DNA of 64,000 bases. Origin: Halorubrum sp. Atlit-26R. Its GTDB lineage: Archaea > Halobacteriota > Halobacteria > Halobacteriales > Haloferacaceae. The notes below the pieces were generated by a model that saw only the letters and a program-made list of their open reading frames with translations, made no database searches and had not been told where the DNA came from. The stretch lies in the NCBI RefSeq assembly GCF_003666015.1, contig NZ_QPLT01000008.1:62001-126000 (forward strand), in the 5' to 3' direction. Shown here piece after piece: positions 894-63,259 of the stretch. The translations under genes and the position numbers were made by a program. Within the stretch, counting starts at the first letter, position 1; each line of letters begins with the position of its first letter.

Positions 894-2135
894 ATGGCGA
901 ATTTGTTTGAAGACACCGCCACAGACATTTTCGATTCGATGGATCGACTCCGGGATGCGTATATCCCAGATGAGGTCCTCCATCGGGAGGAGCAGATCAG
1001 CGAACTACGCATGGCCCTCATGCCGGCAGTAAACGGAGATACGCCGTCTCACCCGTTCCTCGTGGGACCGAACGGGACGGGGAAGACTCTCGTCACTAAG
1101 CACGTCACCTCTCAGCTGAAAGAATACATCGAGGAACAAAACGAGGAGAAACCGCCGGAGGACCAGCAGGAGGTTTCGATCGTCTACACGAACTGTTCAG
1201 ACTGTACCTCCGGCTACGCTGCTTCTATTCGGGCAGCAAACCAGATTCTCCCAGAAGAACAACGACTCTCAGAGACGGGACACTCGTCTCGTGTGGTCAA
1301 CAAACGGCTGTTCAACGCGCTCAACGAGCAGGGCGATATTGTGGTGCTGGTTCTCGACGAGATCGGCGGCGCCGACGATCTCAACGACCTGTTCTATCAG
1401 GCGAGCCGCGGGACTCAGCCCGGGACGTACCTCGATGGAACGAAGTTGTGTGTGATCTGTACGGCAAACAACCTCTCGTTCCGGGACAACTTCAACAGCG
1501 CCGTGCGTTCGTCTCTTGTCGAGCACACGATCGAGTTCCCAGCCTACGACGCAAACGAGATCCGAGATATTCTTGAGATGCGAGCGGAGGAGGCGTTCAC
1601 GGAACAGGGTATCGACCAGTCGGCAGTCGAGATCGCCTCGGCTTTGGCTGGCAAGCAGAACGGAGACGCCCGTTACGGGCTCGATATGCTACTCAAGGGC
1701 GGCCAATACGCGATGAATATGGGTGATTCACCGGTTACTGACGAACATATCCGTCGCGGAAAGGAGAAAGTCGACCGCACCCGGATGGACTCCCTGATTT
1801 CGACGTACTCCGAAACGGGGCAGATAATCATAGCATCTCTCGCTCACGCAATGAAGCAGGCCGAAAAAATGCCCGAGAGTGCTAAGGTGACCGGGACAAC
1901 CGTGTTGAACATCTACGAGCAGGCTTGCGAGGCTACGGCCACCAACGCTGTCAAGAGACAGAACTTCTACAGTTACCTCCGCGACTTCAGCGATAACGAG
2001 GTCGTGGAAGTAATCCGAAACAGCAACTCCAATACTAACGAATACCGGCTCTCTTACCCGCCGGACGCGATATTTCAGGCACTTTCACCTAACATTCAGG
2101 AGTCGCTAAAGCAAGAGACGAAGCTGATTGACTGA
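894..2135 (+). CDS. orc1/cdc6: Orc1/Cdc6 replication initiator
   Basis: This AAA+ initiator is expected to bind the adjacent iterons and recruit replicative helicase. The 413-residue protein has Walker A GPNGTGKT (about residues 58-65), a Walker B VVLVLDEI stretch (about 150-157), an AAA+ lid, and a C-terminal region that can hold the winged helix. Length is normal for haloarchaeal Orc1/Cdc6. The ATG at 894 follows a G-rich leader and is the first in frame before the conserved N terminus. It lacks the window-wide promoter module. The nucleotide-binding residues look intact, unlike the MCM encoded at 44133. Which origin it serves is inferred from adjacency. Confidence 0.93.
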   Translation: MANLFEDTATDIFDSMDRLRDAYIPDEVLHREEQISELRMALMPAVNGDTPSHPFLVGPNGTGKTLVTKHVTSQLKEYIEEQNEEKPPEDQQEVSIVYTNCSDCTSGYAASIRAANQILPEEQRLSETGHSSRVVNKRLFNALNEQGDIVVLVLDEIGGADDLNDLFYQASRGTQPGTYLDGTKLCVICTANNLSFRDNFNSAVRSSLVEHTIEFPAYDANEIRDILEMRAEEAFTEQGIDQSAVEIASALAGKQNGDARYGLDMLLKGGQYAMNMGDSPVTDEHIRRGKEKVDRTRMDSLISTYSETGQIIIASLAHAMKQAEKMPESAKVTGTTVLNIYEQACEATATNAVKRQNFYSYLRDFSDNEVVEVIRNSNSNTNEYRLSYPPDAIFQALSPNIQESLKQETKLID

Positions 2136-59457: not shown

Positions 59458-59487
59458 TATACTGTTACTAATGGAAAACTGTTAAGT
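59458..59487 (+). promoter_or_regulatory. Element promoter for 59524 operon
   Basis: Module TATACTG, TAATGGAAA, GTTAAGT; CCCGTAGCCCC initiator-type sequence, leader GGACAAGAACG. Confidence 0.84.
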
Positions 59488-59523
59488 GCCCGTAGCCCCT
59501 CGTTACAGATGAGGACAAGAACG

Positions 59524-60189
59524 ATGGCAGCCAGTAACGAGCAGTCGACGACCGGAGCCGAACAGACCACCACCGGGCCGACAGAGAGTGGGGAGAACAC
59601 CGAGACGGAGTCGCTTCGAGACCTAAGCGTCGAGGAGTTTCGGAACAAGCTCGCGTTCGACGCGGACGTTCAGGGACTCCCGACGACCCACGCGTTGATC
59701 GTTCGCGACACGTCCGAGGTTCTGATCTATATCGAGCGGTCCTGTAACAGCGACGGTAAATGGGCTGCCCGTTCAGTCAACGTGCTCGGAGATCGTGTTC
59801 ACTTCGCGACCACAGACCGCGAACGTGCCGATATTGCGGCTATCATGGTTGAGGAGTTCGACGCGGATGATCTGACCGTTGACGACGAATACACCCAACA
59901 GATGCCGATCAAGCACGGTATCCCGACCCCGATCGCAGTCGACGGGGAGCCGGCGATCGCCGCGTGGCTGTTCTACCGGGGCGGTAGCTATGAGCAGGTC
60001 GCTCACGAGATGGGCGTCAGCAAGGAGACCGCGGCCGACTACATCTCGCAGTTCCGTCAGCGAGAGACGGGTATCCCGGACGGGATGGACCTCCCCGAGT
60101 ACGACGAGTTGGTCCCGGAGGTCCCCGAGCGGTTCGACCCCGATCCTAACGGGCAAACCACTTTACAGGCGTTAGGAGAACTGTCGTAG
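59524..60189 (+). CDS. HTH DNA-binding protein
   Basis: 221 residues. A C-terminal helix-turn-helix is visible at about 150-180: YRGGSYEQVAHEMGVSKETA then ADYISQFRQR, typical of sigma-70-region-4/resolvase-type HTH. The N-terminal 140 residues form an alpha/beta domain (THALIVRDTSEVLIYIERSC). Probably a transcription regulator. Start fixed by ATGGCAG after the leader; an open frame upstream passes through the promoter. Confidence 0.78.
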   Translation: MAASNEQSTTGAEQTTTGPTESGENTETESLRDLSVEEFRNKLAFDADVQGLPTTHALIVRDTSEVLIYIERSCNSDGKWAARSVNVLGDRVHFATTDRERADIAAIMVEEFDADDLTVDDEYTQQMPIKHGIPTPIAVDGEPAIAAWLFYRGGSYEQVAHEMGVSKETAADYISQFRQRETGIPDGMDLPEYDELVPEVPERFDPDPNGQTTLQALGELS

Positions 60190-60245
60190 ACCGACCCACC
60201 ACAGCCAATGCTACACACGACTTGGAGAGACGGAGGATCGCGGTA

Positions 60246-60737
60246 ATGTACCTCAACGAGACGGATACCCGTATGTTCCGCCGCGGAGCGCAGGGGTACG
60301 GTGTCGAGGTGTATGGCGGGACGCCCGAGCAGCGGCGGGCGGCGTTCGAGATCCAATTCGACGAGCCCACCGTGTTCGTCGATGCTCGCGAGATGGACGC
60401 TGCCGAGGACCTGTTCAAGACCGTGCTGCTGGCGGTCACCGACAGGGACGAAGAAGCGATCGAGAATCAGCCCAGTTGGGCCGGCTGGGACCTTCAACGC
60501 CCTCTTGAGGAGACCGACACCAACCTCGTTATCTTAGAGTTTGACTCGCTGCCGAGCGATGCCCGAACCAACGTCGCCCAGCACATGAAGGCCCTCGCGG
60601 AGAACCTTCGCGTCGACGAAGTCAAGCTCGGGTTCACATCCGAGGAAGGCGGATCCGTCGTTCACGCCGAGCCCGACCTCCGGATGCGGGTCAAGAGTTG
60701 GGAGATCGAGTCCGAGGTGGTCCGCGGTGAGCTCTAA
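60246..60737 (+). CDS. Protein of unknown function
   Basis: 163 residues. TNLVILEFDSLPSDARTNVA then QHMKALAENLRVDEVKLGFT resembles an AAA-type strand-helix arrangement but lacks Walker motifs. 56 bases after the HTH gene; overlaps the next gene by 11 bases. Confidence 0.62.
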   Translation: MYLNETDTRMFRRGAQGYGVEVYGGTPEQRRAAFEIQFDEPTVFVDAREMDAAEDLFKTVLLAVTDRDEEAIENQPSWAGWDLQRPLEETDTNLVILEFDSLPSDARTNVAQHMKALAENLRVDEVKLGFTSEEGGSVVHAEPDLRMRVKSWEIESEVVRGEL

Positions 60738-61242
60738 CGGTGACCCGGGCGACGCCGAACCCGACGAAGGTGGGTCGAGCGGCGGTCACGTCGGGCCGAT
60801 CGTGTTCTCGGACCCGGACGCCCGTCGCCGGCTTGAACAGAGCGGGGAAGTCGTTACCTTCCGGACGAGCCAGCGGACGACGGGCGAGACGTGGTGGCGG
60901 AAGTCCCGGACGGGAGAGAAGATGGGCGACTGTCGCGTCGAGTTGATCGGCCCGGTCGACTCATCCGACCGCTCCGCCATCCGCGACTACCATCGGGACG
61001 CCGGGTTCCGCAGCGCCCGCGAGTGGGAGGAGGCGATCGAGGAGTTCCACGGCGAGCTTCCGGAGGGCTACCTGTATCGCGTGACCAGCGACGAGATATG
61101 GGCGGAGTGCGAGTCGTGTCACACCTACTCCCCGGAGGTCGCGACGGTCGGCCGGGGTCCGAACGTCACCAACCTGTGCCCAGACTGTCGTCGACTACCG
61201 GGCGGCTCGCAGTCCGGAGAGGGGGGTGACCATGCCGAGTGA
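60727..61242 (+). CDS. ASCH-like domain with C-terminal zinc ribbon
   Basis: 171 residues from GTG. IVFSDPDARRRLEQSGEVVT, then FRTSQRTTGETWWRKSRTGE, GDCRVELIG, GFRSAREWEEAIEEFHGELP and LYRVT follow the ASCH/YqfB pattern. CESC (about 136) and CPDC (about 155) form a zinc ribbon. Second ASCH-type gene in the window. Possible role in recognising modified nucleosides (inference). Confidence 0.7.
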   Translation: MSSNGDPGDAEPDEGGSSGGHVGPIVFSDPDARRRLEQSGEVVTFRTSQRTTGETWWRKSRTGEKMGDCRVELIGPVDSSDRSAIRDYHRDAGFRSAREWEEAIEEFHGELPEGYLYRVTSDEIWAECESCHTYSPEVATVGRGPNVTNLCPDCRRLPGGSQSGEGGDHAE

Positions 61243-61765
61243 GACGCCCGACCCCAAGTGGGGCCCGGGGCAGGTCGTTCTCCGACACAAGACGGCGTGG
61301 TACCATCACGTCGTTTCCCGGTACGTCGACGTCGACGACGGGAGCGTTCTCTACGAGATCGCGGGCCCGACCCACACCGGGAGCAAGTTCATCCCGGAGC
61401 GCGAGGCGATCCACGACTACCAGAGCGCCGGGTTCCGAATCCCGCCGGAAGTCAAGCCTGCGACCGTGTTCGGGACGGAGGTCGAGGGCATCCTCTACGG
61501 CTACAAGGACGAGCCGCACGTCCCCGTTGAGGGCAAGGAGACCCCGATCAAGGTAGGCGACGCGGTCGACGACAGCGACGCCCACGCTGACACCGGCGAC
61601 GAGCAGACGCCAGCAGTCCGAGGGCCGCGTCCTGACCACTTTTCGCACTCCGCGATGGGATGTGACGGGCAGTTCCACTTCGACGACGCTGACGGCTGTT
61701 ACCGGTGCCTCAGTTGCGGTGCCGAGCGGCCGTTTTACGCGTGGCAGGAAGACCTCCCCCAGTAG
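61232..61765 (+). CDS. Small-barrel plus zinc-ribbon protein
   Basis: 177 residues. KWGPGQVVLRHKTAWYHHVV then RYVDVDDGSVLYEIAG suggests a barrel; CYRCLSCGAERPF (about 158) is a C-x2-C pair, with MGCDG upstream as possible partner. Overlaps the ASCH gene by 11 bases. Confidence 0.66.
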   Translation: MPSETPDPKWGPGQVVLRHKTAWYHHVVSRYVDVDDGSVLYEIAGPTHTGSKFIPEREAIHDYQSAGFRIPPEVKPATVFGTEVEGILYGYKDEPHVPVEGKETPIKVGDAVDDSDAHADTGDEQTPAVRGPRPDHFSHSAMGCDGQFHFDDADGCYRCLSCGAERPFYAWQEDLPQ

Positions 61766-61796: not shown

Positions 61797-62318
61797 ATGG
61801 GACACCCACAGCCTGCGGTCGATTTTCTCACCTCTGTCGCAGACGAAGTAGGGATAACAGCCCCCGAGATACCATTTGCCGAGTGGTACTTGATCGAGGG
61901 CGTCGACGCCGAGCGGGGGGACGATATTCGTGATCACCCCGAAGTGTGGAACAAGGGGCTGACGCTCCCTGACGAGCTTCGCAATCTCTCGCCGGAGGAC
62001 TATATCGCGATCCGCCCATTCGAGGGGACAGTCAACCTCAATGCTGCCGCTATCGGACTTGGCCTGAATAACGTCACATACGAGCCCAAGGCGTTCTCCG
62101 GACTTGTCTACCGACCGGGGAGTGACGCGACGATCATCGTCTACGGGGGGTATCTCTACCTCGCGATCGCGGAATCAAAAGAGGAGGCCGTCGCTGGGGT
62201 CGAGCAGCTACCCGACGACCTCGAACGGATAGGAATCGGTGATGAGATGGTATTCACCTCCGAACCGGTCGCACGCTCGGTCGAGGACTTCATGCGCGAC
62301 GGGGCGGGTCTGGAATAG
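61797..62318 (+). CDS. TBP-derived protein containing one TBP repeat
   Basis: 173 residues. Residues about 78-145 match the second repeat of haloarchaeal TATA-binding protein: NLNAAAIGLGLNNVTYEP, FSGLVYR, ATIIVYGG and SKEEAVAGVEQLPDDLERIG. Normal TBP has two such repeats forming a saddle. Here the N-terminal 75 residues do not resemble TBP. The stirrup Phe (KAFSG) is kept; the second intercalating position reads Tyr. It may dimerise or pair with host TBP. No element module upstream (CTTATC about 30 bases before ATG). The gene at 62319 follows without a gap. Confidence 0.85.
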   Translation: MGHPQPAVDFLTSVADEVGITAPEIPFAEWYLIEGVDAERGDDIRDHPEVWNKGLTLPDELRNLSPEDYIAIRPFEGTVNLNAAAIGLGLNNVTYEPKAFSGLVYRPGSDATIIVYGGYLYLAIAESKEEAVAGVEQLPDDLERIGIGDEMVFTSEPVARSVEDFMRDGAGLE

Positions 62319-63179
62319 ATGGCTCGGCTCTACGAATACGCCGCTTCCAGCGACAAGTCCGGCTACTTTCTCCGCGGAGGAACGAGCGGCAGCAACTACA
62401 CATTAGGCGTGACAGCCCTCGGACGCCGTCTTTTCGACCACTTAGGGTATGACCCCGGCGTCGTGAACAAGGAACGCGGGCCCCGGATCCCCTCACAGTT
62501 ACATTGGTCGATGTACGAGGCAGGACTCATCCGCCCCGGCGACTCCGACCCTTCGGGTCACGGTATCGACGGCGAGATCGACGTCGACGAAACAGAGCTC
62601 ACCGAGGAGCAGATCGACGAGCTTGAGCAATTCATTCGCTCGGCGGATACCAGTCGGTCCGAGATACAGGAGCTTGCTGAGATATTCGGTTTCGACCCCG
62701 GCCCCGAAACCTCAGATGCTACGGACGGCCCGAAGAACATCATCTGGGAAGTCCACGGAAAGGCAGCCGAGATCGTCGCAAACGAGATACAGAGCACGCT
62801 CAAGGGGAGGCTTTCGCCCGGCGAAAACAGCGGTCGCTTCGAGGTCGAGTCTGTGCGGTGTTCGGATGCTTCCAAGTTGTTCGACGAGACGACGACCTTC
62901 CAAGTCCGAACAGCCACAGAAGGCGGATCCACGAAGGAACAGCACCAACTGGTGTTCGTCGAAGGCGATGGCCTCACACAGATCACCTCCACCACGAACG
63001 TAGCCCTCGGGTGGGATGATCGCGTACGGATTCAAAAACAACAGATGGACATACTTGATACGATCAGGCGGGTATCGAACGGGCCACTCGATATGTACCT
63101 CGGCGACCCCGCCGACCCACCGGATATAGAGATCATCGACAGAGCGGCCAACCCACACGATCGGATTCCGAGACAGTAG
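62319..63179 (+). CDS. Protein of unknown function, coupled to TBP-like gene
   Basis: 286 residues; ATG directly follows the TAG of the TBP-like gene. Middle part helical (LTEEQIDELEQFIRSADTSR), then NIIWEVHGKAAEIVANEIQS and beta segments (STKEQHQLVFVEGDGLTQI). Joint expression suggests a partner of the TBP-like protein. No TFB zinc ribbon or cyclin fold recognised. Confidence 0.68.
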   Translation: MARLYEYAASSDKSGYFLRGGTSGSNYTLGVTALGRRLFDHLGYDPGVVNKERGPRIPSQLHWSMYEAGLIRPGDSDPSGHGIDGEIDVDETELTEEQIDELEQFIRSADTSRSEIQELAEIFGFDPGPETSDATDGPKNIIWEVHGKAAEIVANEIQSTLKGRLSPGENSGRFEVESVRCSDASKLFDETTTFQVRTATEGGSTKEQHQLVFVEGDGLTQITSTTNVALGWDDRVRIQKQQMDILDTIRRVSNGPLDMYLGDPADPPDIEIIDRAANPHDRIPRQ

Positions 63180-63230: not shown

Positions 63231-63259
63231 CATACTGTATATAATGGAAACTACTAAGA
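63231..63259 (+). promoter_or_regulatory. Element promoter for 63294 operon
   Basis: Module CATACTG, TAATGGAAA, CTAAGA; leader GGGAAAACG. Confidence 0.8.

Follow-up and report, generated by a model that had tools for sequence, protein, structure and literature searches.

A rare haloarchaeal protein with a single TBP lobe of repeat-2 type, encoded on a likely conjugative-type plasmid, as a possible regulator of transcription initiation

TBP, essential to both archaea and eukaryotes, has to our knowledge always been described as a DNA-reading saddle made of two lobes. The locus described here raises the question of what a protein with only one such lobe does, and whether it serves the promoters of the element that encodes it. 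It lies in the window, i.e., the whole stretch of 64,000 nucleotides analysed; on contig C8 (181 kb) of the 4.1-Mb haloarchaeal genome, these are bases 62001-126000. We refer to the protein as half-TBP; its gene is made up as follows.

61797..62318, + strand: half-TBP gene, an open reading frame with an ATG start (173 aa), a single PF00352 match and two full-length orthologues
61797..61994, + strand: N-terminal part (residues 1-66), conserved by pairwise identity and, from TBP-HMM and Pfam negatives, unrelated to TBP
61995..62237, + strand: TBP lobe of repeat-2 type (residues 67-147), from HMM scores, tree, AF2, Foldseek and VIA-align
62238..62315, + strand: C-terminal tail (residues 148-173), with a strand (158-161) and a helix (162-169) predicted by AF2

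The open reading frame at 61797-62318 contains the residues quoted in a preliminary description of this DNA, which had proposed that only the second TBP repeat is present, and profile searches bear this out. Pfam gave one significant PF00352 match, at residues 75-143 (E 4.7e-6), whose 26.8 bits exceed the gathering cut-off of 22.9 bits. Both orthologues also lie above the cut-off (30.4 and 29.2 bits), and the tandem two-lobe architecture is absent, each of the three members having a single PF00352 match. The NCBIfam archaeal TBP models aligned over their C-terminal half only (profile positions about 104-185; best E 4e-12), and half-TBP scored 52 bits with a repeat-2 HMM against 22 bits with a repeat-1 HMM (52-60 and 20-28 bits, respectively, for the three members). 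The N-terminal part had been described as unrelated and 75 residues long; it is indeed unrelated to TBP, but its length is nearer 66 residues, the TBP fold beginning at about residue 67. The first 65 residues gave no signal with either TBP-repeat HMM (scores below zero), and a repeat-1 remnant sought in the N-terminal part with these HMMs was not found. This part has no Pfam match, and plasmids contain no relatives (the best hit, at E 2, is not a gene); a match to designed TIM barrels was dismissed as a short chance resemblance. PADLOC returned nothing for half-TBP. The protein is thus a stand-alone one with a single TBP domain and an extra N-terminal part.

A protein query of 392 genomes of the order recovered two full-length relatives, one in genome G188 (44% identity, residues 1-166) and one in genome G080 (42%, residues 1-152), both from haloarchaeal genera other than that of the source; all other matches in this search were ordinary TBPs aligned over the lobe region only. 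Both relatives share the start M(G/A)HPQPAFDF and a similar length. Pairwise identity among the three members is 44-61% in the N-terminal part and 40-41% in the lobe, and F153, V162 and F165 of the C-terminal tail are invariant in their alignment. A three-member profile scored the members at 273-294 bits and the rest at ≤69 bits; a scan of 171 genomes of the taxonomic family found no further members, and no N-terminal part without a lobe scored above ordinary TBPs in the profile search. The protein family is rare, with two orthologues of half-TBP among ∼450 genomes. No viral orthologue came up in IMG/VR, whether the query was the protein, the alignment of the three members or the N-terminal part; scanning viral sequences for TBP repeats yielded nothing but two-lobe TBPs, plus one divided by an in-frame stop. 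Among the TBP-bearing loci examined, the only single-repeat open reading frames were the three members and two pieces of one stop-interrupted viral TBP. Because full-length orthologues with the same start occur in two other genera, the profile separation is clean and only these three intact single-repeat genes appeared among the loci examined, half-TBP is neither a truncation nor an artefact of assembly. On sequence grounds, it is well supported that half-TBP is a genuine, rare family whose parts have stayed together in at least three genera of haloarchaea.

With 42 repeat-1 and 42 repeat-2 lobes as input, FastTree placed the three members in a monophyletic group (0.99) nested in repeat 2 (0.88), in a group (likewise 0.88) that also holds the TBPs of L077, HJTV-2 and HRTV-9 and the host TBP on contig C18; the tree is based on about 85 residues, and the exact sisters are uncertain. 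These comparisons give good support to a lobe that descends from haloarchaeal TBP repeat 2, with the virus and plasmid type as its nearest kin, and to a protein that has lost lobe 1 and gained a non-TBP N-terminal part. Because some virus/plasmid-type TBPs have a degenerate repeat 1 (HJTV-2 gp41, 35.9 bits), the route suggested is decay of repeat 1 followed by its loss. G188 also encodes, ∼4 kb from its half-TBP, a two-lobe TBP (L084:14460-15017, − strand) whose lobe 1 is very degenerate (27.8 bits). As side observations, L008:4713-5327 and L009:4716-5255 are the TBPs of haloviruses HJTV-2 (its lobe 1 strongly diverged) and HRTV-9 and adjoin restriction-modification genes, and L095:4734-5276, on a contig shared with L106, is an HRTV-9-like viral TBP with an in-frame stop between its two lobes.

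A predicted structure of the monomer, as the preliminary description had suggested, gave a TBP half-saddle. AF2 with an alignment of 18 TBP repeats, the two orthologues left out, reached pLDDT 76.6 and pTM 0.70, a setting in which the TBP repeats favour the lobe fold by construction; from the single sequence it gave no usable model (pLDDT 34.8). In the aligned model, pLDDT was mostly 84-93 in the lobe, near 40-52 in residues 21-50 and about 91 and 85 in the C-terminal tail (residues 151-170). The best Foldseek matches in the PDB were TBPs (E 1.5e-5 to M. jannaschii TBP), VIA-align to TBPs gave Z 10-11.7 (best Z 11.7, rmsd 1.8, 93 residues aligned), and a fold search of a phage library gave no match below E 0.001. 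The model supports a lobe with the sheet and two helices of a half-saddle. Several VIA-align ranges do not stop at the end of lobe 1 but reach the first strand of lobe 2 (e.g., model residues 67-162 on yeast 68-160 in 7o4i, and 68-162 on 13-105 in 1ais). Judging from where these ranges end, the C-terminal strand at 158-161 appears to occupy the place of the neighbouring lobe's strand, capping the pairing edge. This predicted arrangement speaks against the saddle-like homodimer or host-TBP partner initially envisaged. It likewise makes it improbable that half-TBP joins a TBP of the host or of the element, or a lobe from some other protein, to form a heterodimeric saddle or act as a dominant-negative TBP inhibitor. 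A single lobe of repeat-2 type would suit such a role, and two-protein pairs of TBP domains exist in CPSF73-CPSF100 (PMC10688271), but the capped edge would hinder pairing, and three intact host TBPs already hold both lobes in one chain. These three are ordinary two-repeat TBPs encoded on other contigs of the host genome.

Whether the lobe could still read DNA was judged at the contact positions, given here in yeast TBP repeat-2 numbering from a common alignment and compared with 42 haloarchaeal repeat-2 lobes; we take these positions to be DNA contacts from general knowledge of TBP-TATA structures. N159 (N in 42 of 42) is D, D and E in the three members, T215 (T in 42 of 42) is A, V and A, P191 (P in 42 of 42) is S, A and S, and K218 is E, E and D. 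R196 (R in 42 of 42) is replaced in two of the three (R, E and Y), and K211 (K in 41 of 42) is Y, I and R, less certainly because the hairpin is gapped. The minor-groove and phosphate contact set (N159, T215, R196 and K211) is thus not retained in the half-TBP family. The intercalating aromatics remain (F190 is F in all three; F207 is Y, F and F), and the stirrup glutamates that contact TFB are partly kept (E186 is E, Q and D; E188 is K, E and E). Because the readout residues are lost in all three diverged members, the sequences argue strongly against TATA recognition through the lobe's DNA face. The loss of DNA contacts, together with the degenerate repeat 1 already seen in mobile-element TBPs such as HJTV-2 gp41, might instead be read as a TBP gene that has lost repeat 1 and is decaying without function. 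This is hardly credible, since three diverged orthologues keep open frames, the start, invariant N-terminal residues and the architecture; purifying selection and expression of half-TBP are strongly suggested by the sequences.

The setting of the gene is an element with a promoter type of its own, as had been proposed at the outset. The promoter motif is YATAC-N6-TAATGGAAA, about 4 bases ahead of a TTAAGT-like box; the window contains 39 copies of TAATGGAAA with at most one mismatch, where 3.1 would be expected. With one mismatch allowed, the motif has 66 copies in the genome, all on C8 (40.6-158.6 kb), and spans 2279-63250 of the window. A stricter form is absent from 52 other genomes of the genus, and the exact form occurs once outside the source genome among 384 genomes of the order. 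GGAAA beside a TATA-like box would amount to a strong BRE-TATA core with additional sequence upstream; separately, a CCAT...ATGG symmetry in the motif hints at a site for a dimeric activator overlapping the BRE. The element also encodes a divergent TFB, outside the window and 6.4 kb downstream (C8:130750-131730, i.e., L087:4750-5730; 326 aa), with a zinc ribbon, one detectable TFIIB repeat and a motif copy in front; its nearest plasmid relatives are only about 31-35% identical. The element is large and its genes are nearly one-stranded. An Orc1/Cdc6 gene (window 894-2135) and an MCM-type replication gene lie in the window, and the left part of the contig (C8 15-36 kb) carries T2SSE, T2SSF, TrbL/VirB6 and TraG/HerA-like genes; because of these genes, the setting is likely a conjugative-type plasmid. 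Two window proteins searched in plasmid and phage records gave no match. In a set of 52 window proteins, three are of IS605/TnpB type, and another matches the HNH-repeat model PF18780 very strongly (E 2.2e-148).

The half-TBP gene lacks its own motif copy. Upstream of it, the closest copy (59458-59477) stands before six closely spaced genes in a row, the last ending at 63179. The remaining features of this row and its borders are as follows.

59458..59493, + strand: element-type promoter TATACTGTTAC-TAATGGAAA-ACTG-TTAAGT, found by motif match (59458-59477), heading a unit that from gene spacing probably includes half-TBP
59524..60189, + strand: opening gene of the unit (221 aa; HTH-like segment), its start moved to the ATG that follows the motif
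60222..61765, + strand: three overlapping small genes (60222-60737, 60727-61242 and 61226-61765), from gene calling
62319..63179, + strand: gene directly after half-TBP (286 aa), with homologues elsewhere
63231..63250, + strand: next element-type promoter motif, by motif match, marking the end of the half-TBP unit

From this spacing, half-TBP is probably co-transcribed with the other genes of the row from an element-type promoter. The 221-aa product has weak HTH/Sigma70_r4 matches (best E 0.007), the first and third of the small genes have no Pfam match above cut-off, and the 286-aa product has no Pfam match. Homologues of the latter (44% and 31% over nearly the full length) occur in genomes without half-TBP, and it was dropped as a fixed partner on this account; its first ∼140 residues recur before other sequence in several haloarchaeal plasmid proteins.

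The preliminary description had envisaged half-TBP as a transcription factor reading the element promoter. A homodimeric saddle that recognizes YATAC-N6-TAATGGAAA-N4-TTAAGT, possibly with the element TFB, would fit the confinement of the motif to an element encoding both half-TBP and a divergent TFB, as well as the retention of the aromatic intercalators. We nevertheless consider it distinctly improbable: the minor-groove and phosphate contacts are lost, the predicted C-terminal strand sits where a partner lobe would pack, and the BRE-like GGAAA and TATA-like TTAAGT would be readable by host TBP and a TFB. In addition, both orthologue genomes lack the motif, without a copy even when one mismatch is allowed, and half-TBP and the motif thus do not occur together in G188 or G080. 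More specifically, that half-TBP, its single lobe acting as monomer or dimer, and the divergent TFB form an orthogonal two-subunit initiation system reading YATAC-N6-TAATGGAAA-N4-TTAAGT is highly improbable. Because the orthologue genomes lack the motif and carry the genes in other settings, the conserved function of the family, as far as sequences tell, cannot be the reading of this motif. A role as basal factor for the element promoter is not supported, although half-TBP may have a secondary role on the source element.

The reading that we tentatively favour, at somewhat under even odds, is that the element encodes half-TBP as a regulator: made from the unit behind the element-type promoter, the protein would make contact with the initiation machinery and modulate its activity at initiation. 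Half-TBP retains the lobe fold and two aromatic intercalators, and the hydrogen-bonding and most phosphate-contacting TATA residues are gone; it would not read TATA boxes. Protein contact rather than promoter binding is proposed because the DNA-touching residues are gone, and half-TBP may be an inhibitor or regulator acting in this way. The lobe would then be a protein-binding module and the N-terminal part the main functional surface, and half-TBP would contact TFB, perhaps the element's divergent one, or TBP, thereby altering initiation. Better conservation of the N-terminal part than of the lobe, and an element TFB behind the same promoter motif, support a regulator. Weighing against it, E186 and E188 of the TFB contact are only partly kept, the candidate partner is putative, haloarchaeal lobes are acidic overall in any case (net charge −12 for host TBP repeat 2), and the AF2 fold was favoured by its alignment. 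The orthologue neighbourhoods also fit an accessory role and do not point to TFB: in G080 the gene comes third in an operon with ParA, next to an integrase, on a contig of 121 kb, and in G188 it follows a gene for a bPH-domain protein, in a region with HNH and helicase genes. The ParA operon, the N-terminal part as the most conserved region and the lost DNA-readout residues could also mean that the lobe has left transcription and that half-TBP serves as an adaptor, in plasmid maintenance or some other accessory function, the N-terminal part being the active surface and the lobe a scaffold. We regard this as rather unlikely, as ParA does not adjoin the gene in the other two neighbourhoods and descent from transcription-type TBPs was recent enough to keep the NLNAxAIGLGL block in the lobe (83% identity).

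Half-TBP is a candidate for a regulator through which an element acts on host initiation, in haloarchaea that are genetically tractable. Its lobe, released from the pair, maintained across several genera, without its DNA contacts and fused to a new domain, offers a natural test of the abilities of a single TBP lobe. Half-TBP shares lobe sequence and fold with haloarchaeal repeat 2 and with virus and plasmid TBPs (HRTV-9 gp39, HJTV-2 gp41), and with haloarchaeal TBPs the NLNAxAIGLGL and YxPxxFxG signatures and a place in the tree inside repeat 2. It differs from archaeal TBP in having one lobe instead of two, in the loss of N159, T215 and other readout residues, and in its additional N-terminal part and C-terminal tail. 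Archaeal proteins of a single TBP domain (monopartite) were reportedly described by Brindefalk et al. in NAR in 2013, and these, like half-TBP, have one TBP domain without a tandem partner. In view of this precedent, half-TBP is a variant of single-domain archaeal TBP proteins already reported, and its initial designation as a new kind of archaeal factor was too strong. Single copies of the TBP domain in multidomain proteins are likewise found in CPSF73/CPSF100 (PMC10688271) and RNase HIII. For the CPSF73/CPSF100 folds, acidic sheets argued against nucleic-acid binding, none was detected, and protein was bound (PMC10688271); an acidic sheet with a protein-contact role and no nucleic-acid binding is a precedent for our reading of half-TBP. 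Those domains, however, are parts of nucleases and processing factors, whereas half-TBP is a stand-alone small protein likened to them by fold only.
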